Source of the DNA: Linanthus parryae
Taxonomy: Eukaryota > Streptophyta > Magnoliopsida > Ericales > Polemoniaceae
Length of the DNA stretch: 64,000 bases
Assembly (NCBI GenBank): GCA_023055425.1
Contig: JALGPY010000006.1
Location: forward strand, 69,286,127-69,350,126
Direction of reading: 5' to 3'
Made by a program: the position numbers and the translations under genes. The stretch's first letter is position 1. Each line of letters starts with the position of its first letter. A model generated the notes under the pieces. It worked only from the letters and a program-made list of their open reading frames with translations, was not told where the DNA came from and ran no database searches. This document shows positions 1,464 to 59,286 of this stretch, one piece after another.

Positions 1464-1465
1464 GA

Positions 1466-10559: not shown

Positions 10560-10562
10560 GGT

Positions 10563-10574
10563 TGGTATCAGAGC
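10563..10574 (+). other. Primer-binding site of H (tRNA-iMet type)
   Basis: TGGTATCAGAGC begins three bases after the LTR end. This is the standard plant initiator-Met primer-binding sequence. Confidence 0.9.
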
Positions 10575-10608
10575 TCAGTTCGGCGTGGGAGGAAGATCAC
10601 CATCGACG

Positions 10609-15439: not shown

Positions 15440-15444
15440 GGAAT

Positions 15445-20629: not shown

Positions 20630-20632
20630 AAA

Positions 20633-21420: not shown

Positions 21421-21858
21421 ACTTACTTGTGATTATTTGTTGAAATCTCAAAGCCTTGAGATTATACTTTCCAAAGCCTTGAAAGTATAGTTCAAAGCTT
21501 TGAAATTTCTAAGATTGCAGAAAATCTCAAGGCCTTGAGATTGTTCTCTAAGGTCTTGAAACATCTGTGTAGTTTACTTCTTTAAGAAATTGGATCACCA
21601 AATATTATGTATTATCTTTTTAGATAATTGTGTAGTGTTTGCATTACTCAGAAAAGTTTCTAAAATATCCTAAAATATCTTTTAGATATGTTTTGCATGT
21701 GGATTTTAGAAGAGTCATTTTTAAACTCTTTCTCTCAACCTACTTAAGCTGAAATTAAGGGCTTTTCTTTCTATTCTCTCCATTCTCTCTCAATATTTCT
21801 ACGTCTCTCTGCTCTCTCTCTTCTAATCTCAATCTTCTCTCAAAACCCTAATTCCACA

Positions 21859-23638: not shown

Positions 23639-23665
23639 CGACTTGTGAAAGCCAAAGCCTTGATC

Positions 23666-23790
<125 letters not shown>

Positions 23791-26178: not shown

Positions 26179-27493
26179 TGAAAGCTCAGGTTGTTCAAGA
26201 CTTGATAGAGCTTGGCTATTTCAAGGCCTTGAAACAACTTTCAAAGCCTTGAATCAGCTTAAGAGGCTTGAAAATAGTCTTGGCTATTTTCGAGGCCTTG
26301 AAACTGGATTGAAAGCCTTGAAACTGTTAAACCTGAAAGCTTATTCTCAGGGGGATTTTTTCTGCTAACTCTTTGATCTAATTTATTATCTCTCTTGCAT
26401 ATGTTTGATTACTTGTTGATAGATGATGAAAGAAAAATTGTTTAACATGTTTTGAATCGTGCTATATCAACTGTTTGACCAAGATAATGCAGGAAATATT
26501 GTTTCTAAGTTTTGCAGGATTGTTTCCTAAACTAGATTGTTGCAGACTTGGAAACACTTGAAGACTTTGATCCTGTGATCAATCAGACGTGTTTGAAAGC
26601 TTCTCTTGATGGTTAAATGAAGGATTGCAACAAAATATCAGAAGATTGCAATCATTCAACCGTTGGAGAAGATCTCAACATAGTCAACCTCTGTTACCTA
26701 CAAAATAGGAAGGTTGTTGCTGAAAATATGGAGAGATTTGCAGAGTTGTTTGAAGTATTTAAAGAGCTCAAATACGAAGCAACAAACACACATTTCGAAA
26801 CGGAAAAATACAGAGAAAGAATTCTGGATTGAAAATCATCAAAGAAGTTCTTCATCTCTTCCAATCCATACACAGAAGTTCACTACATTTCACTGCAGTT
26901 TTTCTACTCTTAAGTGATCTTCTCTATAGAGCTATATTGATAGATCATTTTTGTATTATTTTCTACATTCATTCTCAAGTATTGTTCAAGGTGAACAATA
27001 TAGAATTCTTAGTTAATCAGTTAGCTAGAGCAGGTACTAGACAGGTTAAGGAAAACCACAAGCCGTAACAGAGTAAGGGAACTCTCTGTGCTTGAGTTCT
27101 AGGGCTTAGCTTTCGATTAATAAGAATTGAGTTGAAAATCCTGCAGGGATCTAATCCCTGAGGTAGAGACGTAGGTCCAAGTGGACTGAACTCTATAAAT
27201 CACTTGTCTTGTGCATTTTCAGTTCATATACTTTCAAAGCTTTGCAGCATACAAAAACTGTTTATTTTTTCAAGGGTTTGAACTTGTTTTCAAGGCCTTG
27301 AAAAATGCTTACTTGTTCTAAAACTTTCAGATGCATTTCAAAGGCTTGAACCTGTGTTCAAGGCCTTGAAATTCATTGTCTGAACTAGTTCTTCTACTTG
27401 TTAGCTAGTTTTCTAAAAAGTTGGCATACTCTATTCAACCCCCCCCTTCTAGAGTATCTTAGTTGCTTATACATCTGCATACTCACACTTTCA
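26179..27493 (+). repeat. 5' LTR of Sirevirus B
   Basis: 1315 bp. It carries the palindrome TTCAAGGCCTTGAA and close variants in pairs: 26220 and 26240, 26289 and 26309, 27269 and 27289, 27337 and 27357. Within each pair the starts are exactly 20 bp apart. Confidence 0.93.
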
Positions 27494-27495
27494 AT

Positions 27496-27507
27496 TGGTA
27501 TCTGAGC
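27496..27507 (+). other. Primer-binding site of B
   Basis: TGGTATCTGAGC, one base different from the tRNA-iMet form TGGTATCAGAGC, two bases after the LTR. Confidence 0.8.
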
Positions 27508-27769: not shown

Positions 27770-29546
27770 TGACACGAATCAACTGCAAGTGTACAGCCGT
27801 CGTGTGTGGTAATATCCGGAAATCAGAGTTTATAGAATCCCAAGAGACTTCTTGTAAACTAGTTATTGTTCTTAACCTTGTGTGGGCAAAGCGCGTTGAT
27901 TTTGTTTGCTAAATCCTACTAAAATTAAAAGACAGATATCTCAATTAATTAGGTTAATGACTTCACGATTAACGAATAATGATTTTTACGAGTTACTTAA
28001 TAGGCTGACAAGTCAGGATATCTCTACAGGTACACTAGAGAATTCACACCACTAAGGATTTATATTTTTAGTAACACGAATACGTTCAATTTAGCCAAAC
28101 GAGCACAATTACTTTGAAAATTCCTCAACCAAAGACTGTATTTAAACTCTCGTATCTAATTCCTCTAGCCTACTCAAATTTAAATACGCATTAAGATCTT
28201 GTGTTCTACTCTCAGTTCTTAGCCAACTAGCAAGATTCCTCAACCCTAGATACAGCTAGTGCACGATTCAAGTTCCGGAAATAAACATTGATTCCTCTAA
28301 CGTTCATAACCTAAATCAATCCTATTGCTACGCCTAACAATAAGAAAGAATGATTAAAATCATAAATCGCACATAACTAAACAAAACACATTCAATTAAG
28401 CTTAATAGCATGAAACCAAATCCATAAATCACCAAAACGTGGTGTCAAACCCTAGCTCCCTACGAGATATCCCGAATTAAGGATTTAGCTACTAAAACAC
28501 ATGATCAAAGTACAAAGTTTCATGATCATAAACCAAAAACTAGAGAGAGTGAAGAGAAAAGATCAAACAAAGCGTCTCCCAAGCTCCCCGTAGCTCCAAG
28601 AACTTGTCTCCAACTCAAAGATACTGAAATATATGCCCTAACCCGTTCTAATATGTTTCCATAGTGTTTAGATGAAGTTCCAAGTAACTGCACAAAAGCC
28701 CCAACGTTTCTGCTGCTCCTGTCGTTCTCTTCGCACGAAGAGAATTTGTCTTCGTGCGAAGACTGTTCTTCTTCGTGCGAAAGTCTTCCTATTTTGAGAC
28801 TGCAAGCATGTTCAAGAAGACTTTCCGAATTTTGGCTAAGTAAAGTCTTCGTGCGAAGACACATTGTCTTCGTGCGAAGACCCTGTAGCTCCAGGATTCT
28901 TGTTTGTCTTCAATGGTCCATAACTTTTTCGTCCGATGTCCGTTTTAGCTCCGTGACCCGCCGTTAGAAAGCTCTTTGAATCTACTCCTAATTGCCACCG
29001 ATCTCACTTCCATCTTCAATGTAGAATCCAAAATATCATTAATTTTCTCTAAAACATCCTGGAAAGGCAACGAAGCTTTTTGAAAAGCAAATAAGGACCC
29101 GGATTTTGATCCCGAACTCCGATGAATGTGATTTTTGCACCTTTGGATTCTTTCGCGACGTAGACTTTGCTCATGCAGATAAATTCCCGTTTCTGGATAG
29201 TTTTCTCGTTTTTATCAATTATTGCCCAAATTTGGCGAAAACATCCAAAACGTGCCAAATTCGCCTTTTCTTCTATTCCGAAGCTCGTTTCTTCTCTCCA
29301 ATTATTCTCGCATGCGTAATTCCTGTCAAACAACAACACGAACACTACCGCGAAGATAAAATGTGATAAATTATCAAAATCATACTCAAAACCATTAAAA
29401 AACGCCCGGATTGTACTTTAAAGCTAAAAAACATCCAAATGTGCATCATTTTCATATTTTGGCTCAAATTTTGTCACTTTGCACCGAAACGCTCTCAAAT
29501 AACAATATAAAGTGTATATAAGATAACTCTTATTAAGGAGTTATCA
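27770..29546 (-). repeat. 3' LTR of element C
   Basis: 1777 bp. Palindrome cluster 28728-28880 with five copies of TCTTCG(TG/CA)CGAAGA or near variants, starting at 28728, 28749, 28770, 28846 and 28867, 21 bp apart within groups. It differs from the other LTR by scattered substitutions and by one extra palindrome unit of 21 bp. Confidence 0.92.
28728..28880. repeat. Phased 14-bp palindromes in the LTR of C
   Basis: Five TCTTCG-TG-CGAAGA-type palindromes (one has two mismatches). The centre distance is 21 bp within the group of three and within the pair. In element orientation they lie about 95 bp upstream of a TATATTT box. The same cluster with four copies lies at about 35924-36057. Confidence 0.9.
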
Positions 29547-34967: not shown

Positions 34968-36731
34968 TGACACGAATCAACTGTAAGTGTACAGCCGTCG
35001 TGTGTAGTAATATCCGGAAATCCGGGTTTATCGAATCCCAAGAGACTTCTTGTAAACTAGTTATTTTTCTTAACCTTGTGTGGGAAAAGTGCGTTGATTT
35101 TGTTTGCTAAATCCTACTAAAATTAAAAGACAAATATCTCAATTAATCAGGTGAATGAATTCACGATTAACGAAGAATGATTTTTACGAGTTACTTAATA
35201 TGTGGACAAGTCAGGATATCTCTACAGGTACACTAGAGAATTCACACCACTTAGGATTTATGTTTTAGTAACACGAATACGTTCTATTTAGCCAAACCAC
35301 AATTACTTTGAAAATTCCTCAACCAAAGACTGTATTTAAACTCTCGTACCTGATTCCTCTAGCCTATTCAAATTTAAATACGCATTAAGATCTTGTGTTC
35401 TACTCTTAGTTCTTAGCCAACTAGCAAGATTCCTCAACCCAAGATACAGCTAGTGCATGATCCAAGTTCCAGAAATAAACATTGATTCCTCTAACATTCA
35501 TAACCTAAATCAATCCTATTGCTACGTCTAACAATAAGAAAGAATGATTAAAATCATAAATCGCACATAACTAAACAAAACACATTCAATTAAGCTTAAT
35601 AGCATAAAACCAAATCCATAAATCACCAAAACGTGGTGTCAAACCCTAGATCCCTACGAGATATCCCGAATTAAGGATTTAGCTACTAAAACACATGATC
35701 AAAGTACAAAGTTTCATGATCATAAACCAAAAACTAGAGAGAGGAAAGAGAAAAGATCAAACAAAGCGTCTCCCAAGCTCCCCGTAGCTCCAAGAACTTG
35801 TCTCCAACTCAAAGATACTGAAATATATGCCCTAACCCGTTCTAATATGTTTCCATAGTGTTTAGATGAAGTTCCAAGTAACTGCACAAAAGCCCCAATG
35901 TTTCTGCTGCTCCTGTCGTTCTCTTCGCACGAAGAGAATTTGTCTTCGTGCGAAGACTGTTCTTCTTCGTGCGAAAGTCTTCCTATTTTGAGACTGCAAG
36001 CATGTTCAAGAAGACTTTCTGAATTTTTTTTAAGTAAAGTCTTCGTGCGAAGACCCTGTAGCTCCAGGATTCTTGTTCGTCTTCAACGGTCCATAACTTT
36101 TTCGTCCGATGTCCGTTTTAGCTCCGTGATCCGCCGTTAGAAAGCTCTTTGAGTCTACTCTCAATTGCTACCGATCTCACTTCCATATTCGTTGTAGAAT
36201 CCAAAATATCCTCAAAATATCCTTAATTTGCTCTAAAACATCCTGGAAAGACAACTAAGCTTTTTGAAAAGAAAATAAGGACCCAGATTTTGATCCCGAA
36301 CTCCGATGAATGTGTTTTTTGCACCTTTGGATTCCTTTCGCGACGTAGACTTTGATCTTGTATAGAAATTCCCGTTTCCGGACCGTTTTCTCATTTTTCT
36401 CAATTATTGCCCAAATTTGGCGAAAACATCCAAAACGTACCAAATTCGCCTTTTCTTCTATTCTGAAGCTCGTTTATTCTCTCCAATTGATTCCCGCATG
36501 CGTAATTCCTGTCAAACAACAACACGAAAACTAACGCAAAGATCAAATGTGATAAATTATCTAAATCATACTCAAAACCATTAAGAATGCCCGGATTGTA
36601 CTTTAAAGCTAAAGAACATCCAAATGTGCATTATTTTCATATTTTGGCTCAAATCTTGTCACTTTGCACCGAAACGCACACAAATAACAATATAAAGTGT
36701 ATATAAGATAAATCTTATTAAGGATTTATCA
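34968..36731 (-). repeat. 5' LTR of element C
   Basis: 1764 bp. Four TCTTCG...CGAAGA palindromes between about 35924 and 36057. It lacks the 21-bp unit that makes the fifth copy in the other LTR. On the minus strand a TATATTT box (35822-35827) lies about 95 bp downstream of the cluster. Confidence 0.92.
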
Positions 36732-38299: not shown

Positions 38300-40626
38300 A
38301 TCACCAAGGAATAGAAGTGGTTCATGGACAGTGGTTACTCAAGACACATGAGTGGAAAGAGATCTCTATTCTCAGAATTAAAGGAGCAATCAGAAGGTTC
38401 AATAACACTTGGTGATAAAGGAAAGTGCAATATTCTTGGTATTGTAAAAGTTGGTACAAATTCTGAAAACTCTATTTCTGATGTTTATCTAGTTGAAGGT
38501 TCGAATTTTAATTTTCTTAGTGTATCTCAGCTTTGTGATAATGGCAAAAAATTCATTTTTGATAAAGAGAAGTGTGTGGTGCAAAATGAGAAATCAGGAA
38601 ATTGCATTCTCACAGCCTCTAGATCAAACAATGTTTATACTTTTCAGACTAACAAAGTTGCAGGTGAAAGTTTGAAGTGCCTCAAGGCATTGAAAGAAGA
38701 TTCAAAGCTTTGGCATAGGAATCTTGGTCATATCAGTTTTCATACTCTGAACAAATTGATCTCTAAAGACTTGGTAAGAGTATTTCCATCCGGCAAGTTC
38801 AAAGAAGATGAGTTATGCAAAGTCTGTGCACAAGGAAAGCAGACCAGAAGCTCCTTCAAGCCAAAGAAGTTTGTAAGTACAACTTGACCTATTGAATTAC
38901 TTCATATGGATCTCTGTGGTCGTATGAGGACTCCTACTCCAAAAGGTAAAAGGTATATGCTAGTTGTTGTAGATGATTTTTCTAGATACACTTGGGTTAT
39001 GTTTCTCAAAGAAAAATCTGAAGCTCTCTCTGAATTTTCAAAGCTTTGCAGAGAACTTCAAAACTTGAAAAAACTAACTGTAGCTTCAATCAGAAGTGAT
39101 CATGGTAGAGAACTTGATCAGTTAGAGTTTGATTTATTCTGTGATAAGCATGGTATTTCTCATAACTTTTCTGCTCCAAGAACTCCTCAACAGAATGGTG
39201 TTGTTGAAAGAAAGAACATGACTCAGGAAGATATGTCAAGGACAATGCTTCTTGAGAACAAGTTGCCAAAACAATATTGGGCAGACGTTGTGAATACAGC
39301 AAACTATATTTTGAACAGGTCCTTGATCAGACATATTCTAAAGAATACCCCCTATGAACTATTCAAAGGGAGGAAGCCAAATATCTCTTACTTCAGACCC
39401 TTTGGATGTACTTGTTTTATCCATAACAATGGAAAAGACAATCTTGGTAAGTTTGATGCAAGAAGTGATGAAGGTATATTTCTTGATTACTCTCTGCATA
39501 GTAAAGCTTATAGAGTTTACAATAAAAAGAACCAAACTGGTTGAAGAGAGCATTCATGTTATTTTTGATGAAAGCTATGATGGTTCTTTGAGTGAAAGTT
39601 TTGCACATTTGAACTTGAACAAGCATGAATCAGAGGAAGAGACTGAGAATCCACTTGGATTCAGGAAAGGCTCAAAAGAAAATAGAAGACATTTTCAAGA
39701 CCTTCAAAATAGTTCTCAAGTCCTTGAAAACACAGCTCAAAGCCTTGAAAAAGATGATCAGAAGGATTCAAGTGATAAAGCTACTTCTTCAATACCAGAG
39801 AAGATCAATGGTGATCCTGAACCATGGTCTCCAAGGAAGAAATTAAATATCTCATCTCATCCAGCTGATAATATCATATCAGATCCAACCACTGGTACAC
39901 AAACTAGATCACAGTTGAATAACTTATGTTCTTTTAATGCTTTTATTTCTCTTGTAGAACCAAAAACTGTGAAGGAAGCTTTGCAAGAAGCAGACTGGAT
40001 TATTTCTATGCAAAGTGAGCTCAATGAGTTTGAGAGGAATAAGGTTTGGAACCTGGTTCCTGCACCAACAAACCAGCCTGTCATTGGTACATTGATTGGT
40101 ATTTTAGAAACAAGTTGGATGAAAGTGGCAATGTAATCAGAAACAAAGCAAGGTTAGCTTCTCAAGGTTACAATCAAGAAGAAGGTATAGATTATGAAGA
40201 AACCTTTGCTCCAGTTGCCAGGTTAGAATCAATTATAATTTTACTTGCATTTGCATCCTACAAGAACATGAAAATATTTCAAATGGATGTAAAGTGTGCT
40301 TTCTTAAATGGTTATTTACAAGAAGAAGTTTATGTTGCACAACCACCTGGTTTTGAAAATGAAAAATTTCCACATCATGTTTACAAACTTGACAAAGCTC
40401 TTTATGGTTTGAAACAAGCTCCAAGGGCTTGGTATGAAAGACTGTCAAAGTTTTTAATTGAAAATGATTTCAAAAGAGGTTTAGTAGACAAGACTCTTTT
40501 CATTAAGACTCGTGAGAAAGATTTACTTGTAGTCCAGATATATGTTGATGATATACTGTTTGGAGCTACTAATGATCAATTATGCAGAGAATTATCAAGT
40601 CTTATGAGCAGGGAATTTGAGATGAG
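38300..40626 (+). pseudogene. Sirevirus B pol: protease, integrase, RT 5' part
   Basis: Protease loop MDSGYSRHMSG at 38324. Integrase zinc region with WHRNLGH (near 38711) and CKVCAQGK. A TGA at 38886-38888 replaces what is probably an Arg codon. Integrase core with VVDDFSRYTW, SDHGRE and NGVVERKN (38906-39544), all three acidic residues present. Frame changes occur near 39535 and 40085. The RT start has [20 protein letters not shown] (from 40147) and YVDDILFG (near 40541). It is cut in RT by D after codon MS. Copia gene order (integrase before RT) is clear. Confidence 0.9.
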
Positions 40627-40919
40627 TGACAGCTTGAAAATGTATTAGTCTGGGACATCTTTTTACCATTGGTTTTAACCCTGTGAGAGTTGAGTTTGGC
40701 CATTTTCAGCTTATTTTCCACCTGATACGAGGCAGAGATTTATAGATCATGATTGCAAAATTTGAGTAATTTTGTGCATACTTTTGTTTGTTGGATATGA
40801 TCGCGGGTGCGTGTTATGATGTGCAGGTAACAGGTGCCGGAAAATGCATGAGATTAACTTGGATGGGAGGCAGCGTGTCAGGAAAGTTGAGCAGAAAAAG
40901 AGGAAAAAATGCTAAGTGG

Positions 40920-41292
40920 TGCGTTCAAACGCAGGATCTGCGTTCAAACGCACAAGACAGAAGAACAGCAGGAAAAAGGCAGAAAATTGGCTAAGTAGTG
41001 CGTTCAAACGCAGGCAGTCTGCGTTCAAACGCAGGGGGTCAGAGGTCGAAGTGCTGAAAAATGCTAAGGGGTGCGTTCAAACGCACTTCCTGCGTTCAAA
41101 CGCAGGACTCAACACTCAAGAGAAGAAACGGCCAAGGGGTGCGTTCAAACGCAGAGGAGCTGCGTTCAAACGCACGGGTCCAGTAGTCAGAAGAGGAAAA
41201 TGGAAAAAACGGCTAAGTCCTGCGTTCAAACGCAGAAGGCAGTGCGTTTGAACGCACTGCGTTTGAACGCAGGAAGTGTGCGTTCGAACGCA
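40920..41292. repeat. Paired 14-bp palindromes in the LTR of D
   Basis: Twelve sites start at 40920, 40939, 40999, 41020, 41072, 41091, 41140, 41161, 41221, 41243, 41258 and 41279. They form six pairs with 19-22 bp between members. Arms are TGCGTT/AACGCA with centre CA, TG or CG. The cluster recurs at 52307-52679 in the 3' LTR, with a few substitutions, and in diverged spacing at 48090-48596. Confidence 0.95.
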
Positions 41293-41377
41293 CAGAAGGT
41301 TTCCAGAAGCTTCCAGGACGGGTCTTTTCGAGGGTAAAACAGGAATTTCGTGCATCAGTTTTTGGAGACTGTGGCAG

Positions 41378-41385
41378 TATAAAAG
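41378..41385 (+). promoter_or_regulatory. TATA box of the D LTR
   Basis: TATAAAAG in gcagtataaaaggagg, 85 bp after the last palindrome. Transcription would begin near 41410. The copy in the 3' LTR is at 52765. Confidence 0.8.
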
Positions 41386-42371
41386 GAGGTGTCCCAACAC
41401 TGAATTAGGGTTACGCATACACACTCACAGCTATCATCATCATCAGCAGCCAGAAGTTGGAGCAGAGCAGGATTGGAGCAGTTTGCAGTATTTTCAGAAA
41501 AATAACTAGTTTGATCTTTTCTCTCTTTATGAAACGTTGTTTTTCAATAATGCAAGCTAGCTAGACCTTTTGCCTAGGTTCTCGGTGAACCTACGGTTTA
41601 TGAATTCAGCAGACTTGGTTGTTTTGATTTTCATATGCATGGCTAGCTAAGTCTTAATACAGGATGGTTTGTTTATTATTCTGTCTTTGATTTTATTTAC
41701 ATACATGAATGGCTTGATCACCCAGGAGTGTTACAGACAGGAACTGGTGCGCGAGAGTGACCAGTGAACGTTAGGAAGAAAAGACAGGATTTAGTACTCT
41801 GCCATGATGGACCGAGAGGTGAAAAGAATCAGGGGACTAGCCCAGAAGCATTAGACCAACTGTTAGACGTTTAGGGGGAGACCGAGAGGAGAACCTGTAA
41901 CCCTAGCAGACTTAGAACGAACCTGCAGATTTAGGTGGACCGAGAGGACCCGAAAATCTGCAGTCGAGTGATAGGTGCATGAGACCGAGAGGAGATTGTA
42001 CTATTGGTATGCTGGCATAAACAAAACCACTGTGTGTTTCTGAAATCAAATATACCATGAAAGCTGGAGAGTAACCCTAGGGGATCCTGGAATCTAGATT
42101 TTTAGAATTATCGACTTTTACAACTACAACAATTTCTGCAAAATATTCAACAGAAAAATAAAATAAGTTTTTTACTGTTTATTTACTGCAATTAAGTAGA
42201 GTCACATCCTAAACCTTCCTCCTTTTTACAACTTTGTGCCTAATTCTAATTCTAATTAGCAACAACTTAAACTGTTCTCGTGGGTTCGACAACCAGAGTC
42301 ACAATTACATACTCTATATTACTTGATCGTACACTTGCGAAAAAGCAGATAGGTTTACGCTGTCAAGTTTT

Positions 42372-42389
42372 TGGCGCCGTTGCCGGGGA
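42372..42389 (+). other. Primer-binding site of D (tRNA-Asp type)
   Basis: TGGCGCCGTTGCCGGGGA, six bases after the LTR, the Athila-typical form. Confidence 0.95.
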
Positions 42390-42509
42390 AAGGTTACAGT
42401 TTTTGTTAAAGAGACATTAGAATAAGTCTCAGAGTTTTTCTTTTATTTTTACAGTTACTTTCTTTCGACTTACTGCTCTTGAAATCTGATTTTCAGGCTA
42501 TTCTAGTTT

Positions 42510-43489
42510 ATGCCCAGATTGCCCAGCAAACTGGTATCACCACTCGAAGATCCCGAAAAACTTTTCAGAGAGCAAAGTCGCAGACACCGAGCCGCGATGT
42601 CTGAGCACGGAGAAGACACCACAACCGAAACAGGAACACCCACAGGACAGCCGCAACGTACTCCAGCACAGATGGCTCTCTACATTGAAGAGCTGATAGC
42701 AGCAGGATTTGCTGCCAGGAACAATCAGAGGACTTATAACAGGTCTGGAAGGGCGCTGGCCGAAAACTTTGAAGTCCCAACCGGAGGACATCAGCCAGCT
42801 ATTGTAGTGCCTCCCATTACAGCAGAGCACTTCGACCTGAAATCATCCACCATTCAGACCGCCCAGACCCATTGTCCTTTTAATGGGAAAGCAGATGAAG
42901 ATCCAAACGACTTCCTTGGAAAATTTGAGGATTACTGCAACAAGATTAAGTATAGAGGGGTCGAAGCGGACACGCTAAAGCTGATTTTATTCCCATACTG
43001 TTTGTTCGGAACAGCAAAAGATTGGCTGGAGGCAAGACCACCGAGGTCTATCACTACCTGGGAAGGGTGTGTTGCTGATTTCTTGGCAAAATTCTACCCT
43101 GCATCCCGCGTTATCAAGCTGCAGAGTGAGATTCTATCTTTCAAACAGCAGATGGGGGAGACAGTTGTAGATGCATGGGACAGGTTAATGAGACTCGTGA
43201 AAAAATGCCCCAACCACGGCTTCGGGGACGCAAAGATTCTGCAGGTATTCTACCATGCACTTGACAGGGAGAATGCAGACAGGATTGATAGGGAAGCTGG
43301 GGGTAACTTTCTATACCATGTGGATAAAGATGGAGCATACGAACTGATGAAGCTATTAGCCAAACAGGATACTCGCCTGTTTGATGACCGCAGGCTCGCA
43401 GCAGCAGCATAACCAGTGGTTGATGACAGGATTGACAATCTCACGAAAGTGGTACAGGACTTAGTCAAAAAGGTGTATACAGAAAAAAG
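42510..43489 (+). pseudogene. Element D gag
   Basis: Starts MPRLPSKLVSPLEDP at 42510. The gag core includes FNGKADEDPNDFLGKFEDYC and later WLEARPPRSITTWE, ending DDRRLAAAA with TAA at 43410-43412. The same frame stays open afterwards (PVVDDRIDNLTKVVQDLV) up to a run of six A (43483-43488). From there the pol frame, one base back, carries the homology. One stop and one shift therefore separate gag from pol. It may be decay, or recoding at the A-run. Confidence 0.82.
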
Positions 43490-46400
43490 CCGGTGGCATC
43501 AGTGGACGAACCTGACTTTGACGCAGCAATTCTGGAGCTTCAGACCGAAGATGCCAACTATGTTCAGCAGCAGTGGGATCCTAGTCGCTACAGACCAGGC
43601 ACACGTGACCATCCAGGGTTTCGCTACGGAAATCCCAATGCAGCAGTATATGCACCAGGATTCCAGCACAGGCCACAGGCACAACAGACAGCTCCAGCTC
43701 AGCCTGCACAAGCAGCACCACAACTAAACCTGTCTCAGCAACATTTTGAGTCCTATATGGAGAAATTCAATAAGCAGTTGGAAACTAGATTCGCACAGAT
43801 GGACTCATTAACTGCTGATGTAAGCCAGATGAAGATTGCTATCCGCAACTTGGAAGTACATAATGGACAGCTTGCACAGAACCAGGCAGAACGAGCCCCA
43901 GGGAATTTACCATCTAACACAGTGAACAATCCACGCGCTCAAATCAATGCTATCACAACTCGGAGTGGAATTGCACTGCAGGATCCACCGTATCCCAGTC
44001 ATGCACGCGCAGAAAAGTCAAAGATTATTGAACAGGAGGTGATTGACCGGGAAGACAGTTCAACCGTTAACCCTCAGAAAAGGGGTTCGGTCGAGCAGGA
44101 AGCAGAGCAGACGAATGAGGGTAATCCAGAAACAGTACCAATTTCTAAGGAGGTTCCTTACCCTCTGAAGACACGCAAGAGAGATGACAGCAAAGACTAC
44201 GCCAGATTTCTGGAGGTATTCAAGCAATTACAGATAAACATACCCTTTGCTGAAGCACTTGCCAAAATGCCTACTTATGCGAAATTTCTCAAAGACATCT
44301 TGTATGGTAGAAGGCGAATGAGTGACTTCGAAACAGTGAATCTGACGGCAGAAGCGAGCAGTTGTGTAAAAAATGGTCTACCACTGAAAAAGAAAGACCC
44401 TGGCAGCTTTGTTATTCCAGTAACCCTGGGCAGTGCATACACAGGAAAAGCCTTATGCGACTTGGGTGCCAGCATCAACCTGATGCCACTGACCATCTTC
44501 AAAAGTCTGGGAGTCGGAGAACCACGTCCAACCAGAATTATGCTTCAGATGGCTGACAGATCCGTGAAACCTGCCTATGGGGTAATTGAAGATATCCTGG
44601 TAAAAGTGGGAGAGCTTATTTTTCCAGCAGATTTTGTGATACTGGATATGGAGGCAGGAGAGGTTCCGCTGATCCTGGGCAGACCTTTCCTGGCGACTGG
44701 TGAAGCCATTATTAACTGCAAAAGTGGAGAGCTGTCCATGCAAATCAATGAAGAAAAAGTAAAATTTAATGTTTTCAAATCTCTCCAGCTTCCCGATCAT
44801 TATGGGCATGAAAACTGTTTTGCAGTAGAGGTAATTGATGATCTGGAAAGCGATGAGATAGAAGATTTATGGGAGGAATTTGAAGACATATTTCCAGAGG
44901 AAACAGAAGAGCAGCAGGATGAGCAGATCATGGGAACAGAAAGCTGGGTCAAGCTATACAGGGATGAAGGAGGCGAGCAGAAAATGACACTGGTCCCGTC
45001 ACTCCAGGAACCACCAGCCCTGGAATTAAAACAGTTGCCAGAACACCTCAGGTACGCTTTTATTGGTGAAAATAATACCCTGCCAGTAATTGTTTCTTCT
45101 CTTTTATCTCAGGAACAGGAACAAAAGCTACTTGAGGTACTCCGAGAGCATAAAGAAGCCATAGGATGGACAATTGCAGACCTGAAGGGAATTAGTCCTG
45201 ATTATTGCATGCATAAAATACGAATTGAAGACGGAAAGAAGCCAGTTATCCAGCCTCAACGGAGACTAAACCCAATTATGAAAGATGTGGTACGTAAGGA
45301 GGTCATGAAGTGGCTAGAAGCAGGAATTATATACCCCATATCAGACAGCACCTGGGTGAGTCCTGTCCAGTGTGTACCGAAGAAAGGGGGTATTACAGTA
45401 GTGCAGAATGCTGATCAGGAACAGATCGCCCAGCGGACTGTCACTGGCTGGCGAATCTGTATGGACTATCGGAAGCTGAACGAAGCCACACTGAAAGACC
45501 ACTTTCCGCTGCCATTTATGGACCAGATGTTGGACAGACTAGCGCACCATGCTTATTACTACTTTCTTGACGGGTACTCTGGCTACAATCAGATCTATAT
45601 AAATCCAGAAGACCAAGAAAAGACGACGTTCACTTGCCCGTATGGAACGTTCGCCTTTAGACGAATGCCATTTGGACTGTGCAATGCTCCAGCAACATTC
45701 CAGAGGTGTATGATGGCTATTTTCTCTGATATGATAGAGAAAAATTTGGAAGTTTTCATGGATGATTTTTCGTTATTCGGGGACAGCTTTGAAGATTGCT
45801 TATACCATCTGGCCAGAGTTCTGATTCGCTGCAGAAAAACAAACCTGGTACTGAACTGGGAAAAATGCCACTTCATGGTTACTGAAGGAATAGTGCTGGG
45901 ACACAGGATTTCCAGTAAAGGGCTGGAAGTAGACAGAGCAAAAATAGAGGTGATCAAGCAGCTGCCGTATCCAACCACAGTGAAGGCAATCAAGAGTTTT
46001 TTGGGCCACGCAGGATTTTACAGAAGGTTTATTAAAGATTTCTCAAAAATTACAAAGCCACTATGTAATTTGTTGGGAAAAGATGTTCCCTTCGTATTTG
46101 ATGAAGCCTGCAAAGAAGCTTTTGACGTGCTTAAAGAAAGGCTGACAACTGCACCCATTATCACAACACCAGACTGGACACTCCCGTTCGAGCTGATGTG
46201 CGACGCCAGTGATTACGCTGTGGGCGCGGTACTGGGACAGCGGAAGGACAAGGTGTGCAGCGTCATCTACTATGCCAGCAGGGTCCTGAATGAGGCGCAG
46301 ATTAATTATGGGACTACAGAGAAGGAGTTGCTGGCAGTTGTTTTTGCCCTGGATAAATTCAGATCATACCTGGTAGGCTCTAAAGTCATTATTTTTACAG

Positions 46401-46606
46401 ACCACAGTGCACTGAAATACTTGCTGGAAAAGAAGGATGCAAAGCCAAGGCTGCTGCGTTGGATTCTGCTGATGCAGGAATTTGACGTCGAAATCAGAGA
46501 TAAAAAGGGAGTTGAAAATGTAGTAGCTGATCATCTATTTGTCTGGAAAAACCTACAGAAGAAGTGGTGCCCATTCAAGAAAATTTTCCAGATGAACATA
46601 TTATGA
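43490..46606 (+). pseudogene. Element D pol: protease, RT and RNase H
   Basis: Open from about 43490 to 46606 (about 1037 residues). Linker with PPYPSHARAE, protease loop CDLGASINLMPL (near 44459), FPADFVILDM and ILGRPFL. RT has WRICMDYRKLNEATLKDHF, DGYSGYNQI, the catalytic box FMDD (45755-45766, the Athila form of YxDD) and LGHRISSKGLEVD. RNase H has MCDASDYAVGAVLG (near 46197) and TDHSALKYLL. Near 46535, after VVADHL, one base is missing relative to the expected frame and integrase continues in another frame. Domains themselves look whole. Fusion to gag and integrase is broken. Confidence 0.9.
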
Positions 46607-47916
46607 AGATCAAGACCAATAGACGGCCCTGGTACTATGCCATAGCCAATTATTTGGTCAATGGAGCACTCCCTGAAGACATTACCCCTTGGCAGAAAAA
46701 GAAATTTATTTCAGATTGCAGGCAATATTTCTGGGACGACCCTTATCTGTTCAAGCAAGGGGCAGATAATATTCTCCGTCGATGCATTCCATGTCATGAC
46801 ATTTTGGAGGTAATTCAGCACTGCCACTCAGCACAGTGTGGAGGACACTTCAGTGGACCGAGAACAGCTCACAAGGTGCTGCAGTCAGGATTTTTCTGGC
46901 CAACAGTTTTCAAGGACTGCCATGATTATGCGCAGAGTTGTGATCGATGCCAAAGGACAGGAAATATCTCCCAGCGGAATGAAATGCCCATGACACTTTG
47001 GCAGGAAGTCGAACCTTTCGACGTGTGGGGTATTGATTTTATGGGTCCTTTTCCTTCTTCTCTGGGAAACCTCTACATCTTATTGGCAGTAGATTACGTG
47101 TCAAAATGGGTGGAAGCAATAGCCTGTCAGAAGAATGATGCGTCAGTCGTGGAAAGGTTCCTCAAACGTAACATCTTTACCAGATTTGGAACACCGAGGG
47201 CCATGGTGAGTGATGAAGGTTCTCATTTTATCAATAAAGTCTTTGCCAAGGTTCTAAAGCAGTACGGGGTGTCTATCCATAAGGTATCACTGCCTTATCA
47301 CCCTCAGGCAAACGGGCAAGCAGAGGTGTCCAACAGGGAGATAAAGAGCATACTGGAAAAAACTGTGAATCCAGGACGCAAGGACTGGTCGTTAAAGCTG
47401 GATAATGCACTTTGGGCATACAGAACTGCTTACAAAACCCCACTGGGAATGTCCCCGTACCAGCTGGTGTTTGGAAAAGCATGTCACTTACCAGTAGAAT
47501 TGGAACACAAAGCTTACTGGGCAATCAAACAGCTGAATATGGATCACAGTTTATCAGGAAATAAACGGAAGATGGCACTCCTTGAACTGGAAGAATTCCG
47601 TAAAACTGCATATGAGAGTGCCAAAATTTATAAAGAGAAAACAAAGAAGTGGCATGACAACCGCATTCTACCAAAGAAGATAGAAATCGGGCAGAAGGTT
47701 CTCCTCTACAATTCAAGGATGAAATTCTATCCAGGGAAGCTGCGCTCAAGATGGTCTGGACCATTTATTGTGAAGGACATTACATCATGGGGAGTGGTGG
47801 AGCTGGAGAACCCGAGGGATAATACAGTTTTCAAGGTGAATGGGAACAGAGTCAAGCCATACAGGGATCCTCAGGAAATCATGGAGGTAGAGGCACTCTA
47901 CCTCGACATTCCGTGA
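46537..47916 (+). pseudogene. Element D integrase
   Basis: The frame homologous to the pol C-terminus runs from the shift near 46535 to a stop at 47916. It has no start of its own at the shift; the first ATG is 46564. Zinc region [11 protein letters not shown]...CDRCQ (~82-123). Core with WGIDFMGPF (first Asp ~157), VSDEGSHF (second Asp ~217) and [11 protein letters not shown] (Glu ~254). C-terminal [13 protein letters not shown] module. All catalytic residues are seen. Loss of fusion to RT is the only visible fault. Confidence 0.9.
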
Positions 47917-48089
47917 TTACAGCAGAGGTAACAAAGTCGGGCTGTCGACTGTAAATCACAAGCGCTGGTTGGGAGGCAACCCAACATAGATTAGTTGTTT
48001 TTATATAATTTTTACAATGTTCATAATTTGAGAGAAAAGTGAGAAAGAGGGATTTAATGTTGAACTCAGTGTTTCAGGAAGCAGAGGCG

Positions 48090-48596
48090 TGCGTTCAAAC
48101 GCAGAAGACATGCGTTCAAACGCACTTGTGCGTTCAAACGCAGCTACCCTGCGTTCAAACGCAGCCCCACCAGCGGACAGGAAAAGCACTGGAAACGGTT
48201 AACACTTGTGCGTTCAAACGCTGAAGAGTTGCGTTCAAACACATATCACATCATGAAATTTTCCAGCCACTAAGTGGTGCGTTTAAACGCAACTCATGTG
48301 CGTTCAAACGCAAGAAGACAGAGATGAGGTGGAAAAATCTAAGGACGTGCGTTTAAACGCAGATCCTGCGTTCAAACGCAGAACCAAGCAGTAGAGAATT
48401 TCTAGAGACAAAGGCACGCGTTCAAACGCAACTCATGTGCGTTCAAACGCAACTCATCAGACCCAGAAAATCAAAGAACATTCAAGCACTGCGTTCAAAC
48501 GCAACTCATGTGCGTTCAAACGCAGATCATCAGATCTTCAAATTTTCCAGAAAAACTAAGCTGTGCGTTCAAACGCAGAAGCTGCGTTCAAACGCA
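48090..48596. repeat. Internal cluster of paired 14-bp palindromes
   Basis: Sixteen TGCGTTCAAACGCA-type sites start at 48090, 48111, 48129, 48150, 48209, 48230, 48278, 48299, 48348, 48367, 48417, 48438, 48490, 48511, 48564 and 48583. They form eight pairs, with 21 bp in six pairs and 19 bp in two. Three sites are damaged (48209, 48230, 48417). Sequences between pairs differ from those in the LTR, so this is not a simple copy of the LTR. Confidence 0.95.
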
Positions 48597-48679
48597 CAAT
48601 CGAGCGGGATCAAAAATTTCGGAAAATTTTGAAAAATTTTGAAATTTTGGGGCCATTCTGCAATTTCTGAAAGTTTGCC

Positions 48680-48687
48680 TATATATA
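48680..48687 (+). promoter_or_regulatory. TATA box of the internal promoter of D
   Basis: TATATATA in gcctatatatactg, 83 bp after the last palindrome and about 310 bp before the favoured start codon of the third ORF. Confidence 0.65.
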
Positions 48688-48991: not shown

Positions 48992-50485
48992 ATGGAGGTG
49001 GATCAACCTTACATGAGGCCGGATAGGGCAATTGCACCTTTGAATATCATCGACTGCCGATTGCTTAGGGCTAACCACTTCTGCGACCATAGGTTTGTTA
49101 ACATGGAGGCTCACCGTTTCTTTCTGCAAGACAAAAAGATTCGGTATGACATACCCGCCGAGAGGACCTTTCCCCGTGATAGGGTAGCAATGGGGGATGA
49201 ACTGTTCGACTATACTGGGCAGGATCATTTTGGGGATTTGTTTACTGGGTTTACCAACCTGCAGGTCAGTTCTGTGCTGGCTAAGGAGATTTACAGCAAT
49301 CTCCAGCAGTGCATGAACAGTGAAGCCCAGTCAATTGACTGGATTTACTGCAGAAAGAGATGGATTCGAATCACCCCAGAGAGTATCCGAGAGAGTCTGG
49401 GCCTGGAGTTAGTGTTGGATGACTGTCAGTTTCAGGAACTGAGACGTCATCCATCTGAGCAGTTGAGTGAGCAGATCTTGACCACCCTGTGTGCTGGTGT
49501 ACCCGGCGCTGCTTGGTACCACCCTGAAAGGAGTCCGTCCTACCGGAAACTTCCGTCGACCTACCTGATTCGAGAGGCGAGATGGTGGACAGAGTGGGTG
49601 AACAACAGAGTTGTGGGTATAAAACACTTTACCCACATTGATTATAATATTGCCCTGCTTGTTTACTGTCTGATGGCCCGTGAGCCTGTGAGCCTCCCGG
49701 AGATTATTTGTGAGTTTTTCCGGGAACGGAGAGAGACTCATAGCAAGAAGGGTTTGGGTCTCCTGGGGATGTTAACGAAAATGGCACAGGACTATCTGGT
49801 AGTAATTCCTGGTGAGCTGAGAGATATCCGACCAATTCAGGTTAGGAAGTACAAGAACATGAGATGTGCGTTGCATGAGGCCGTGCACGGGCCTCCTGAA
49901 TATGTCCAAGTGGATGATGATGATGATGTTGTTCCACCTCAGGGTGGGGGTGTTGGCATGCCGCCACCGCCCCCTCCCGGTGATGGGGGTTTTCCAGCCT
50001 TACCAGGTCCCTTCCCACTGCCCCGATCTGCCAGTTCCAGCGAACACAGGCAGGCCGACCCTGACTTGGGGCAGTCCAGCAGAGGGGCCAGGCGCAGTTC
50101 TTTTGGGCGCCTGGAGAGGACTGAGCATGAGGAGTGGGTCAGAAAGAAAATTAAGGCCCAAGAAAAAAAACAGAACTACCTGGTAAGGACGGTCAAGAAA
50201 ATGGCCAGGGGTCTTGGCAAATTGTTCAAGACCCAGAAGCATATCTACCACGCTCACACAGCCGCCATGAGAGCTCATGAGTCGGCACTTGCTGAAATTC
50301 AGAGCAACATGCGTGGTAAGCGGTTTAATTTTCCGGACCGCTATTCGAGTGATAATTGTCCAAGCTGGACAATGGAGGATAGCCGGCCATATGATAGCTT
50401 CTCTGCCCATGACCCCACACCGAGCCCGGAACATGCAGACAGTGTAGGTGACCCCCGGCAGACCCGGTACCCAGTACCCACCTAG
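48992..50485 (+). CDS. Third (env-position) ORF of Athila element D
   Basis: 497 residues from ATG 48992 (MEVDQPYMRPDR). An upstream ATG at 48836 is also in frame, but adds a leader of unlikely composition. The central part (IYSNLQQCMNSEAQSIDWIY, then ITPESIRESLGLELV) resembles the family called putative plant transposon protein (PF20167-like), found in retrotransposon extra ORFs. Later come a run of Asp, a polyproline stretch (PPPPPPGDGG), a Lys-rich coiled region (WVRKKIKAQEKKQ) and a Ser/Pro tail. I see no signal peptide or clear membrane segment, so an envelope role is not supported by this reading. The frame is intact. A second frame (50448-50669) overlaps the end and could be the original C-terminus. 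Its own palindrome/TATA module lies upstream. Confidence 0.8.
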   Translation: MEVDQPYMRPDRAIAPLNIIDCRLLRANHFCDHRFVNMEAHRFFLQDKKIRYDIPAERTFPRDRVAMGDELFDYTGQDHFGDLFTGFTNLQVSSVLAKEIYSNLQQCMNSEAQSIDWIYCRKRWIRITPESIRESLGLELVLDDCQFQELRRHPSEQLSEQILTTLCAGVPGAAWYHPERSPSYRKLPSTYLIREARWWTEWVNNRVVGIKHFTHIDYNIALLVYCLMAREPVSLPEIICEFFRERRETHSKKGLGLLGMLTKMAQDYLVVIPGELRDIRPIQVRKYKNMRCALHEAVHGPPEYVQVDDDDDVVPPQGGGVGMPPPPPPGDGGFPALPGPFPLPRSASSSEHRQADPDLGQSSRGARRSSFGRLERTEHEEWVRKKIKAQEKKQNYLVRTVKKMARGLGKLFKTQKHIYHAHTAAMRAHESALAEIQSNMRGKRFNFPDRYSSDNCPSWTMEDSRPYDSFSAHDPTPSPEHADSVGDPRQTRYPVPT

Positions 50486-52013: not shown

Positions 52014-53752
52014 TGACAGCTTGAAAATGTATTAGTCTGGGACATCTTTTTACCATTGGTTTTAACCCTGTGAGAGTTGAGTTTGGCCATTTTCAGCTTA
52101 TTTTCCACCTGATACGAGGCAGAGATTTATAGATCATGATTGCAAAATTTGAGTAATTTTGTGCATACTTTTGTTTGTTGGATATGATCGCGGGTGCGTG
52201 TTATGATGTGCAGGTAACAGGTGCCGGAAAATGCATGAGATTAACTTGGATGGGAGGCAGCGTGTCAGGAAAGTTGAGCAGAAAAAGAGGAAAAAATGCT
52301 AAGTGGTGCGTTCAAACGCAGGATCTGCGTTCAAACGCACAAGACAGAAGAACAGCAGGAAAAAGGCAGAAAATTGGCTAAGTAGTGCGTTCAAACGCAG
52401 GCAGTCTGCGTTCAAACGCAGGGGGTCAGAGGCCGAAGTGCTGAAAAATGCTAAGGGGTGCGTTCAAACGCACATCCTGCGTTCAAACGCAGGACTCAAC
52501 ACTCAAGAGAAGAAACGGCCAAGGGGTGTGTTCAAACGCAGAGGAGCTGCGTTCAAACGCACGGGTCCAGAAGTCAGAAGAGGAAAATGGAAAAAACGGC
52601 TAAGTCCTGCGTTCAAACGCAGAAGGCAGTGCGTTTGAACGCACTGCGTTGGAACGCAGGAAGTGTGCGTTCGAACGCACAGAAGGTTTCCAGAAGCTTC
52701 CAGGACGGGTCTTTTCGAGGGTAAAACAGGAATTTCGTGCATCAGTTTTTGGAGACTGTGGCAGTATAAAAGGAGGTGTCCCAGCACTGAATTAGGGTTA
52801 CGCATACACACTCACAGCTATCATCATCATCAGCAGCCAGAAGTTGGAGCAGAGCAGGATTGGAGCAGTTCCCAGTATTTTCAGAAAAATAACTAGTTTG
52901 ATCTTTTCTCTCTTTATGAAACGTTGTTTTTCAATAATGCAAGCTAGCTAGACCTTTTGCCTAGGTTCTCGGTGAACCTAGGGTTTATGAATTCAGCAGA
53001 CTTGGTTGTTTTGATTTTCAGATGCATGGCTAGCTAAGTCTTAATACAGGATGGTTTGTTTATTATTCTGTCTTTGATTTTATTTACATACATGAATGGC
53101 TTGATCACCCAGGAGTGTTACAGACAGGAACTGGTGCGCGAGAGTGACCAATGAACGTTAGGAAGAAAAGACAGGATTTAGTACTCTGCCTTGATGGACC
53201 GAGAGGTGAAAAGAATCAGGGGACTAGCCCAGAAGCATTAGACCAACTGTTAGACGTTTAGGGGGAGACCGAGAGGAGAACCTGTAACCCTAGCAGACTT
53301 AGAATGAACCTGCAGATTTAGGTGGACCGAGAGGACCCGAAAATCTGCAGTCGAGTGATAGGTGCATGAGACCGAGAGGAGATTGTACTATTGGTATGCT
53401 GGCATAAACAAAACCACTGTGTGTTTCTGAAATCAAATATACCATGAAAGCTGGAGAGTAACCCTAGGGGATCCTGGAATCTAGATTTTTAGAATTATCG
53501 ACTTTTACAACTACAACAATTTCTGCAAAATATTCAACAGAAAAATAAAATAAGTTTTTTACTGTTTATTTACTGCAATTAAGTAGAGTCACATCCTAAA
53601 CCTTCCTCCTTTTTACAACTTTGTGCCTAATTCTAATTCTAATTAGCAACAACTTAAACTGTTCTCGTGGGTTCGACAACCAGAGTCACAATTACATACT
53701 CTATATTACTTGATCGTACACTTGCGAAAAAGCAGATAGGTTTACGCTGTCA
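52014..53752 (+). repeat. 3' LTR of element D
   Basis: Matches 40627-42365 at a constant offset of 11387. Palindrome cluster 52307-52679, TATA at 52765. About 13 substitutions by eye, several of them inside or beside palindromes. Confidence 0.95.
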
Positions 53753-53757
53753 ATGAG

Positions 53758-54625: not shown

Positions 54626-55081
54626 GGGGAGCATAAGGTAAGAAAGGTAAGTTGTTTGTGTATAAAAAGGTTTGAGCTGAGTTTCAAAGCCTTAAAAATC
54701 AGTTCAAATCTTTGATTTCTTACTTGTTGCAGTGTTACAGTGTTTTAAGGCCTTGAAAGCCTTTTCAAAGCCTTGAAAATGAATCTGTTACACTAATAGT
54801 CAATAAACTTGGATCATTCTATACTGGTTGATATCTCTGTAGATATTTGCCTAATATAGCCCCTACCTTTTTCAAAAATTTGTTTTAGCCAAAAATAGTG
54901 TTAGTATATTCTTTTTCCAACGGCATAAAAGTTTGAAATTTTCTCTGATCTTTGCAAATCGTTTCAGAATCAGAGAGATCCTAGTTTCCTTTTGAAACTC
55001 AAACTCTTTCAGTATTTATCCTCTTCTCTTATCCTTCATTCCATATCGTTCCATCTCTCTCTTTTCATCTCCCTAACCCTA
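54626..55081 (+). other. Spacer between pol and the env-like ORF of B
   Basis: Starts with a purine-rich gggggagcataagg. It holds several AAGGCCTTGAAA-type palindrome variants (54683-54782) and a pyrimidine-rich leader before the ORF. The homologous spacer in F is 21421-21858. Confidence 0.7.
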
Positions 55082-56380
55082 ATGAGAACAAGAAGATCCT
55101 CATATCGAATCAAGATGGCTGGTGGTTCAAAACCTGTCTCAGAGAAGAATAGAAAGGCAGCAGTGGAAGAGGTTCAAGAAGTCAGTGGAGACTCCAGCTC
55201 CATAACTCCTAGTGCAGAAGCAGTTCCATATCCTCCTCCACAAGAGAAGAAGATCAAGAAGGCTACAACCTCCTCTTCAGAAAAGCAGAAGAATCAGAAG
55301 GCCATTACAGAAAAGCAACCAGAAAAAGAGGCTACTAATTCAAAGAAGGTGAAAAAGAAGGCAACTCAGGCAGAAAAAGGGAAAGGGAAGGTGATTGAAT
55401 CACAACCAGGAGGTCAATTGGAGAAGGCATTGCAGATCTATTCGCAAGTCTCAACAAAGAACACAGCTCCAGATGAGACATGGTTTGTCTCAAACATCTC
55501 TAAAGGTAAGTGGTTAGATGGTTTTGCTTCAAGGTCTATTGGTTTTTGCAGTTTGGTTAATAAGTATGTGTTCGAACACATGAAACTCAATTGCATCTCT
55601 ATGTTAAAGAAGAGCTCTTTGTGGTGTATGTTGAATCCTAGGGATATTGCCTACCCCAGACTCACCAGGCTCTTCTATCTGAACTTAACCCAAGTCAAGA
55701 GATCTGCACATTTGGTGATCAAATCGAAAGTTGCAGGGATCATAATTGAACTAGATCACTCTGAGTTTTCCAATGTGTTAGGTTGTCCAAAGAGGTATGA
55801 CACCAGCAACCATCCACCAAAGTCAGAAACTTTGAAGCTAGCCAAAGAAGAATTCTTTCTTCCAAATGTCTCAACCTCAGCCAAACAGTTAACACACTCT
55901 GTGTTAAATGTTGAAGCTAAAGTTCTTCATACTATACTGGTGAGGTGTGTATTTCCTAGAGAGCACTCAAGAGAGTTGGTGACAGAGAGAATGTTTCACA
56001 TCATGTACCTGGTTATGCATGGTTTTGAGATTGATCTCCCAAAAATAGTTCTTGAACACACGCTCTTCAGTCTAACCATTAAGAGGATTCACCCTCTGCC
56101 ATATGCTAACATCCTCACCATGTTCTTTGAGCACTTTGAGATCCCTTTTACAGGAGAAGAATTAGTCACATATGGGTTTGGGGAACTCAATGAGAAAGCC
56201 TTTGAGAAAATTGGAGTTGTGAAAACAAAAGAGAAAGTTTGGAAACTTTACTCTGACCTGACTAAAGCAGAACTAGGTGCAAAGATATTTTCTAAACCCA
56301 AGACCTTAACTCCCACTTCAAGTCAGACCTCTCAGCCTATAGAAAATCAAAGACTTGATGGTTTGGAACTGGACATGTAG
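55082..56380 (+). CDS. Env-like (third) ORF of Sirevirus B
   Basis: 432 residues from ATG 55082 (MRTRRSSYRIKMAGG). An upstream ATG at 54992 is in frame, but lies in the leader and the F homologue starts at the later place. The first ~130 residues are Lys/Glu/Ser-rich. A globular part follows: YPRLTRLFYLNLTQ (~195), then VFPREHSRELV (~295) and the hydrophobic HIMYLVMHGFEI, then PLPYANILTMFFEHFEIPF. This resembles the putative plant transposon protein family (PF20167-like). Sireviruses often have an ORF here called env-like. Function is unknown. The frame closes at 56380, but the F copy extends further, so the C-terminal acidic part has probably been cut off by a stop. Confidence 0.78.
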   Translation: MRTRRSSYRIKMAGGSKPVSEKNRKAAVEEVQEVSGDSSSITPSAEAVPYPPPQEKKIKKATTSSSEKQKNQKAITEKQPEKEATNSKKVKKKATQAEKGKGKVIESQPGGQLEKALQIYSQVSTKNTAPDETWFVSNISKGKWLDGFASRSIGFCSLVNKYVFEHMKLNCISMLKKSSLWCMLNPRDIAYPRLTRLFYLNLTQVKRSAHLVIKSKVAGIIIELDHSEFSNVLGCPKRYDTSNHPPKSETLKLAKEEFFLPNVSTSAKQLTHSVLNVEAKVLHTILVRCVFPREHSRELVTERMFHIMYLVMHGFEIDLPKIVLEHTLFSLTIKRIHPLPYANILTMFFEHFEIPFTGEELVTYGFGELNEKAFEKIGVVKTKEKVWKLYSDLTKAELGAKIFSKPKTLTPTSSQTSQPIENQRLDGLELDM

Positions 56381-58408: not shown

Positions 58409-59286
58409 ATTACTAATGGAATCAAGAAACTTTAACTCATTCAATAGAATAAATCATCAAAGCATGAAATTAGATACAATCCGGAAAATCAACGTTTACA
58501 AGAACCCTAGGATCTCATATGAGATTCCTAGCTATGAAAGCTTAGCTACTCAATGTAAGATAAACAATAGAAAAAGAGTTTCTCCATGAATTTTATTAAG
58601 AAAAGGGAAGAAGGAATCGAAGTAGATTCTCAAATGGTGAAGTCTCCGTCTCCTCTTTCGTCCTTGCCTCTCCTCTGCGTCAATGAGTAATTTCCATACC
58701 CCTAGGTCGTCCTTGATTCAATTCCCGTTATAAGTATTCAATATTTTCGTTTTAACCCCAAAATTATGGTCCAGAGTCAGACCATTTCGTACGAAATAGC
58801 CCATTTCGTACGAAATGAATCTTAACTATGACTTATCCAAGCCATTACTTCTTTGTCTGATCTCCGATTAAGCTCTGTGACCTATCGTTGGAAAGCTCTT
58901 TGAGTCTACTTTCATTTGGAACCAGTCTCACTCCAAAATTCATTGTTCAACTCTAGATATAATCAAATGAGTTTATACTGGTCATTCTAGCTCCTCCAAC
59001 TTTGCTTCCCTTGACTCCACTTGAGCTCCCGTTGTTTCCGAAGTTCGTTCCATGCCTCTTATCAACATATTAGCATCAATTCCTGTCAAAACAACATGAA
59101 CAAACATACCAAGCGATCATATTTGACAAATAACATCGAAATATCCATAGAAACCACCGGAGTAACAATGTAGCACATAGGAAGCATTAAGTGACAAAAC
59201 GACTCATATTTTCCGCAATTATGCTCAAATATCTCATATTAAAGTGGAAGATAGAAATAAGATATAGTTCTCAAAAGGAGCTATCA
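58409..59286 (-). mobile_element. Element E: Athila-like LTR, right piece
   Basis: Continues the LTR interrupted by B. It is similar to the C LTR (gaaagctctttgagtctact near 58890, and the end ggagctatca) and stops at 59286. Two perfect palindromes ATTTCGTACGAAAT start at 58784 and 58803. A purine tract on the minus strand (59287-59300) follows, so this is the 3' LTR of a minus-strand element. Confidence 0.75.
58784..58816. repeat. Paired 14-bp palindromes in the LTR of E
   Basis: Two perfect ATTTCG-TA-CGAAAT palindromes whose starts are 19 bp apart, at the LTR position where C has its cluster. Confidence 0.9.

Follow-up and report, generated by a model that had tools for sequence, protein, structure and literature searches.

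Paired palindromes ahead of two TATA boxes in an Athila retrotransposon of Linanthus parryae: a candidate control module shared by the LTR and the third open reading frame

The locus described here raises the question of whether a single retrotransposon uses one promoter module, composed of palindromes and a TATA box, twice: once in its long terminal repeat (LTR) and once in front of its third open reading frame (ORF3). The element, designated D, lies in a window of 64,000 nt of Linanthus parryae (contig JALGPY010000006.1), and all coordinates are positions in that window. A preliminary description had placed 12 palindromes in the LTR and 16 inside the element, each cluster followed by a TATA box. 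A scan for the palindrome allowing up to three mismatches bore out these copies, since 85 strand-matches were found where 4.65 were expected in shuffled sequences (maximum of 100 shuffles, 13), and both TATA boxes were located at the distances described. The module consists of the following features:

40920..41292, + strand: palindrome array of the D 5' LTR, 12 paired copies of TGCGTTYRAACGCA, from the mismatch scan
41378..41385, + strand: LTR TATA box TATAAAAG, 85 bp past the array
48090..48596, + strand: internal palindrome array of D, 16 copies, between integrase and ORF3
48680..48687, + strand: internal TATA box TATATATA, 83 bp past the array

The consensus palindrome of D is TGCGTT, a pyrimidine-purine step and AACGCA. 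The 5' LTR array contains nine exact copies, two in reverse complement and one with a single mismatch, and the internal array contains 11 exact copies, two that are TA-centred and three with one arm deviation (48209, 48230 and 48417), so that 13 of its 16 copies are arm-perfect. The pyrimidine-purine centre was present in all 28 copies of these two arrays (23 CA, 2 TG, 2 TA and 1 CG). The 3' LTR, absent from the preliminary description, holds 12 copies at equivalent places (52307-52679), two of them substituted, one being GG-centred and another arm-changed. Spacings within pairs were 19, 21, 19, 21, 22 and 21 bp in the LTR array and 21, 21, 21, 21, 19, 21, 21 and 19 bp in the internal array (21 bp in 9 of 14 pairs), and two steps between pairs were short, at 15 and 18 bp. 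The observed/expected ratio of CpG, calculated as a ratio only and without an island program, was 1.16 and 1.31 in the arrays compared with 0.50-0.65 in the remainder of D. Across the 13126 bp of D there are 10 starts of the word TATAWA, which puts the chance of one falling no more than 3 bp off the LTR distance at about 0.5%, for a slot picked post hoc. From the internal TATA box a transcription start is predicted near 48710. The 281 nt preceding ORF3 contain no ATG, and a single ATG at 48696 is situated just upstream of the predicted start; scarcity of ATG was not significant in the leaders of D (P 0.14) or of two Sirevirus elements described below, E (P 0.79) and F (P 0.71).

Among the 336 arm positions of the 28 palindromes in the internal and 5' LTR arrays, 3 deviate. 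We compared the long spacers (four from the LTR, six internal) with 100 shuffles. Identity was 56% within the LTR, 51% within the internal array and 52% between the two, as against 48, 47 and 46% in the shuffled spacers, and none of the shuffles reached the observed score in any of the three comparisons. In four of six LTR pairs and three of eight internal pairs a CTAAG box precedes the first palindrome by 8 bp (9 bp in one case). Its starts at 40912, 40991, 41064, 41213, 48270, 48339 and 48556 may mark a second conserved site. The sequences between pairs do differ, as had been claimed, yet they are not unrelated. Since the sequences following the two arrays are little alike (identity 0.54 versus 0.51 shuffled; score 60.5 versus 43.7, sd 8.0, about 2 sd above), the internal array is no recent LTR copy, in agreement with the earlier view that it is not merely a copied LTR. 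Because spacer similarity exceeds that of shuffles while the arms have hardly changed, the arrays are related through an old common repeat unit, in which the palindromes were kept and the spacers have all but dissolved. It is solely the ancestry of the copies that points to constraint on the palindromes, not the comparison between the LTRs, in which there was no sign of constraint after insertion (2 differences within the 168 positions of palindromes and 11 within the other 1571).

We propose that a homodimeric DNA-binding protein recognises the palindromes, so that each array would be a cluster of its binding sites, with the paired sites about two helical turns apart. The LTR cluster would serve the LTR promoter and gag-pol RNA, and the internal cluster would serve a Pol II promoter from which ORF3 mRNA starts near 48710. 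As both promoters would carry clusters of the same binding sites, one trans factor would control both transcripts. This factor would most likely be the ORF3 product, a protein of the PF20167 family, acting on the TGCGTTCAAACGCA palindromes of D in the way of VANC of VANDAL elements (sequence-specific anti-silencing) or of foamy virus Tas (activation of both the LTR and an internal promoter). We assign this explanation as a whole a probability of roughly 0.45. The two-promoter, shared-factor part of it, already put forward in the preliminary description, is likely, as it fits the sequence and gains from the neighbouring elements; ORF3 as the shared factor is plausible, if somewhat short of an even chance. 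Transcription from the internal site, and thus the internal promoter itself, protein binding and the identity of the factor are what we infer from these features.

The other parts of D are as follows:

40627..42365, + strand: 5' LTR, 1739 bp
42372..42388, + strand: primer binding site TGGCGCCGTTGCCGGGG, starting shortly beyond the LTR end at 42365
42510..43412, + strand: gag ORF (Retrotrans_gag, by domain match)
43493..47916, + strand: pol, with protease-reverse transcriptase-RNase H at 43493-46606 and integrase at 46564-47916 in a different frame
48992..50485, + strand: ORF3, 497 aa from the first in-frame ATG, PF20167
52014..53752, + strand: 3' LTR, with the palindromes noted above and a TATA box at 52765

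The insertion of D is young, because its LTRs are nearly identical (13 differences in 1739 positions) and the ATGAG target-site duplication is undamaged (40622-40626 and 53753-53757). Gag, protease-reverse transcriptase-RNase H and integrase occupy three different frames, and the order of domains, with integrase last, is that of Ty3/gypsy elements. The primer word TGGCGCCGTTGCCGGGG presumably pairs with tRNA-Asp. Its offset from the LTR is close to that in Calypso/Diaspora, where a tRNA-Asp primer site lies about 5 bp after the LTR (PMC1142308). For ORF3 only PF20167 was reported in a profile scan up to E 10, in which HMMER filters limit weak matches. PF20167 is reported in the third ORF of a sunflower Athila together with a predicted nuclear localisation (PMC11728184), although the family is not diagnostic, since it also occurs in Sirevirus E. 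On domain order, primer site and the PF20167 ORF3 taken together, D is assigned to the Athila lineage of Ty3/gypsy.

D is inserted within E, a Ty1/copia Sirevirus recognised by its copia gag and integrase domains and by the polypurine word AGGGGGAG exactly 10 bp before its 3' LTR. E seems to be interrupted also by another Athila element, B. The features of E and of the Sirevirus relic F are:

26179..27496, + strand: 5' LTR of E, with palindromes like TTTCAAGGCCTTGAAA (0-3 mismatches) at 26219-26323 and 27268-27371
54682..54778, + strand: three palindromes of E before its ENV-like ORF, 1-2 mismatches, the last two 20 bp apart
55082..56380, + strand: ENV-like ORF of E, 432 aa, PF20167
57110..58411, + strand: 3' LTR of E, the polypurine word starting at 57100
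21446..21561, + strand: five palindromes of F with 2-4 mismatches, upstream of the broken ENV-like ORF at 21787-23135

The palindromes of E stand in pairs with 20-bp spacing close to both ends of its LTRs, four pairs in the 5' LTR, and the same word precedes the ENV-like ORF, so that E, although unrelated to D, shows the same match between LTR and pre-ORF palindromes. This word, with up to three mismatches, gave no match in the 39928 positions outside E and F. Relic F has five additional copies in its LTR region, and the copies of F are a mixture of variants of a single word. LTR copies occur together with a PF20167-type ORF in D, E and F within the window; the D and E proteins share this Pfam family, with no direct alignment between the two. 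Several features of E weigh against a simple promoter module: six further palindrome matches fall within the gag-pol region, the LTR arrays of E do not adjoin a TATA box, and its pre-ENV copies are 126-145 bp from TATA-like words and contain no CpG.

Other observations on these two elements concern three palindrome copies (2-3 mismatches) exactly 21 bp apart in the copia pol region of E (39693-39750), more copies of AGGGGGAG at 54624 and 56923, and a long CTTT microsatellite (23665-23790) downstream of the broken ORF of F.

Palindrome arrays were also observed in the LTRs of B, called Athila by the similarity of its gag and protease to those of D, and of a fragment, G, called Athila by the similarity of its LTR to that of B and of its linker to that of D:

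28728..28880, - strand: LTR array of B, TCTTCGYRCGAAGA in five copies, of which one has two mismatches, in 21-bp steps within groups
58784..58816, - strand: LTR pair of G, ATTTCGTACGAAAT twice at a spacing of 19 bp

A TATA-like site is located near 28633, about 94 bp beyond the B array. The other LTR of B contains four copies (35922-36053), one 21-bp palindrome unit fewer (28846-28880 versus 36040-36053), which is direct evidence of unit-wise slippage. No ORF3 was detectable in B, and no internal array of its own word. The LTRs of B and G are 78% alike over 105 bp, and in both the array comes after this stretch, at about an equal position. Their palindromes have TTCGYRCGAA in common and differ in the outer two bases on both arms. 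The three Athila families therefore use different words in one grammar: a 14-bp dyad, a pyrimidine-purine centre and pairs 19-22 bp apart. In the TATA-proximal LTR palindromes of D (41243-41292) and B (28728-28741) the centre, read on the element strand, is TG or CG in place of CA. The control was a Tat/Retand-like element, which has a palindrome array in its linker (22 copies, 0-1 mismatch, 7255-8499) and none in its LTRs.

Could the palindromes instead be sites for a host transcription factor, for example of stress or the cell cycle, that binds at both promoters while ORF3 is merely co-expressed and has another role? The TTYRAA centre of the D copies resembles a cell-cycle homology element, a point in favour of a host factor. 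Palindromic LTR boxes are usually taken as host cis-elements, and those of Sireviruses matched mainly stress-factor sites (PMC2829016). However, the words differ among D, B, G and E while dyad length and pair spacing are alike, and the palindromes of B and G differ symmetrically. With palindromes that vary in a constant grammar, one coevolving protein family is easier to envisage than unrelated host factors, and we regard a host factor as possible but unlikely. A spliced LTR transcript as the source of ORF3 expression, with the internal array acting as an enhancer or silencing target and no internal start in use, appears improbable. For BAGY2 and Athila the splicing of ENV-like RNAs, or the prediction of acceptor sites, is on record (PMC2829016), and pyrimidine-rich stretches ending in AG can be seen by eye in the D leader, but the internal TATA box stands at an LTR-like distance from its array and a promoter of the ENV ORF is reported for Athila6A (PMC4977677).

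Two further explanations dispense with a binding protein. The pairs could matter as RNA or DNA hairpins, either as sources of small RNAs or as structural signals. A 300-nt piece of the internal array did fold better than 200 of 200 shuffles (z -5.76), and Sirevirus palindromes attract small RNAs (PMC10760457, PMC5311732). Such folding is, however, an expected by-product of repeated self-complementary words; no more than 2 of the 14 pairs have complementary centres, which leaves selection for hairpins unsupported, and the three arm deviations all lack a compensating change. We hold this explanation to be quite improbable. Satellite-like turnover, in which tandem duplication proceeds without a selected function, would account for the slippage between the B LTRs and for the linker ACTCATG common to three internal pairs of D. 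Slippage would homogenise the spacers too, whereas the palindromes (and CTAAG) are far more constant than the rest, and the palindromes of D and B lie at like distances before TATA words, so that turnover is very improbable as an explanation.

The preferred reading, with paired sites at two promoters and the ORF3 product as their common factor, would bear on a plant retrotransposon gene whose role has long been described as controversial and without proof (PMC2829016, PMC3414828). If the arrays bind the ORF3 product, the envelope-like gene becomes a self-regulator and the family-specific palindromes gain a purpose. Each element would then be a protein-DNA pair suitable for testing how its own chromatin is opened selectively with the rest of the genome untouched. 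We suggest, quite tentatively, that the envelope-like genes of Athila and Sirevirus elements may encode not envelopes but self-activating or anti-silencing proteins of the VANC fold, each element having a palindrome lock of its own at the LTR and at the ORF3 promoter, that protein and palindrome coevolve, and that the module is common to two superfamilies. What deserves to be pursued is how palindrome grammar, PF20167 and a VANC-like fold may be connected.

The control element covers 155-21258 on the minus strand. Its LTRs (155-783 and 20630-21258) are 99.7% identical, and it carries an antisense ORF with a plant mobile domain (1385-3514, PF10536) and an approximately 54-bp palindromic tandem array at 7255-8556. 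Within it is a very recent Ty3/gypsy insertion (9981-15441) with 581-bp LTRs that are 100% identical.

Searches for relatives gave little. The D integrase had six pattern matches in viral contigs, none a relative, and the PF20167 alignment had 21 and 17 in viral and prokaryotic contigs, again none a relative; the paired palindrome of D had no match in either. No relative of D ORF3 was present in the protein collection searched, where the ENV-like protein of E had one relative, and three by profile. Searches with sequences of solved structures gave nothing usable, the repeat-protein matches being sums of stretches with i-Evalues above 300 in the alignments shown, and a BFVD fold search gave nothing below E 2.

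Among known systems, gene 23 of Grande, credited to Gomez-Orte et al. 2013, is reportedly a plant accessory gene with a nuclear protein and its own promoter. Unlike D, Grande belongs to another lineage, and we know of no array shared with its LTR. Foamy virus Tas is made from an internal promoter and activates that promoter and the LTR; the virus is unrelated to D, and the available part of the source describes no palindrome arrays (PMC8670036). VANC is a protein encoded by VANDAL transposons that recognises element-specific short motifs in their own non-coding regions, and these motifs diverge between families (Hosaka et al. 2017, PMC5735166). D likewise has element-specific repeated non-coding motifs that diverge between families, and a fold shared between VANC and PF20167 is possible. 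Unlike D, VANDAL is a DNA transposon, and where D has paired palindromes, VANC21 has as its motif a 9-base word arrayed in a single orientation. The DUF1985/DUF287 domains of VANC were not found in D ORF3 by the profile scan with the limits given above. For sunflower Athila clades, drops in LTR methylation are described and VANC is raised as a precedent for LTR elements (PMC12844716).

The preliminary description knew of no counterpart in Athila elements, which is wrong for the parts. Athila6A of Arabidopsis, of the same lineage as D, is reported to have an internal, separate promoter for its ENV ORF (Panda et al. 2016, PMC4977677), for which the portion of that paper available mentions no palindromes shared with the LTR. 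In Sireviruses, palindromes in the LTR are repeated upstream of the ENV-like gene, and an internal promoter has been proposed (Bousios et al. 2010, PMC2829016). No description of a palindrome array shared between the LTR and an internal position in an Athila was found in the literature searched, part of which was read. D resembles the Sirevirus repeated-motif (RM) boxes in having many copies of element-specific palindromes upstream of the LTR TATA box and of an ENV-like gene. Those boxes are characterised by at least eight palindromes per element, clustered in the LTR (12 per LTR in D), by copies upstream of the ENV-like gene (16 in D) and by CpG-rich clusters, which D also has. The available part of their description makes no mention of paired 19-22 bp spacing or of equal TATA distances (PMC2829016). 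A CGG-CCG core is present in 12 of 13 described RM boxes, whereas TGCGTTYRAACGCA is without it, and D is a Ty3/gypsy element with its integrase after the reverse transcriptase. D would thus work like an RM system without being a member of it.

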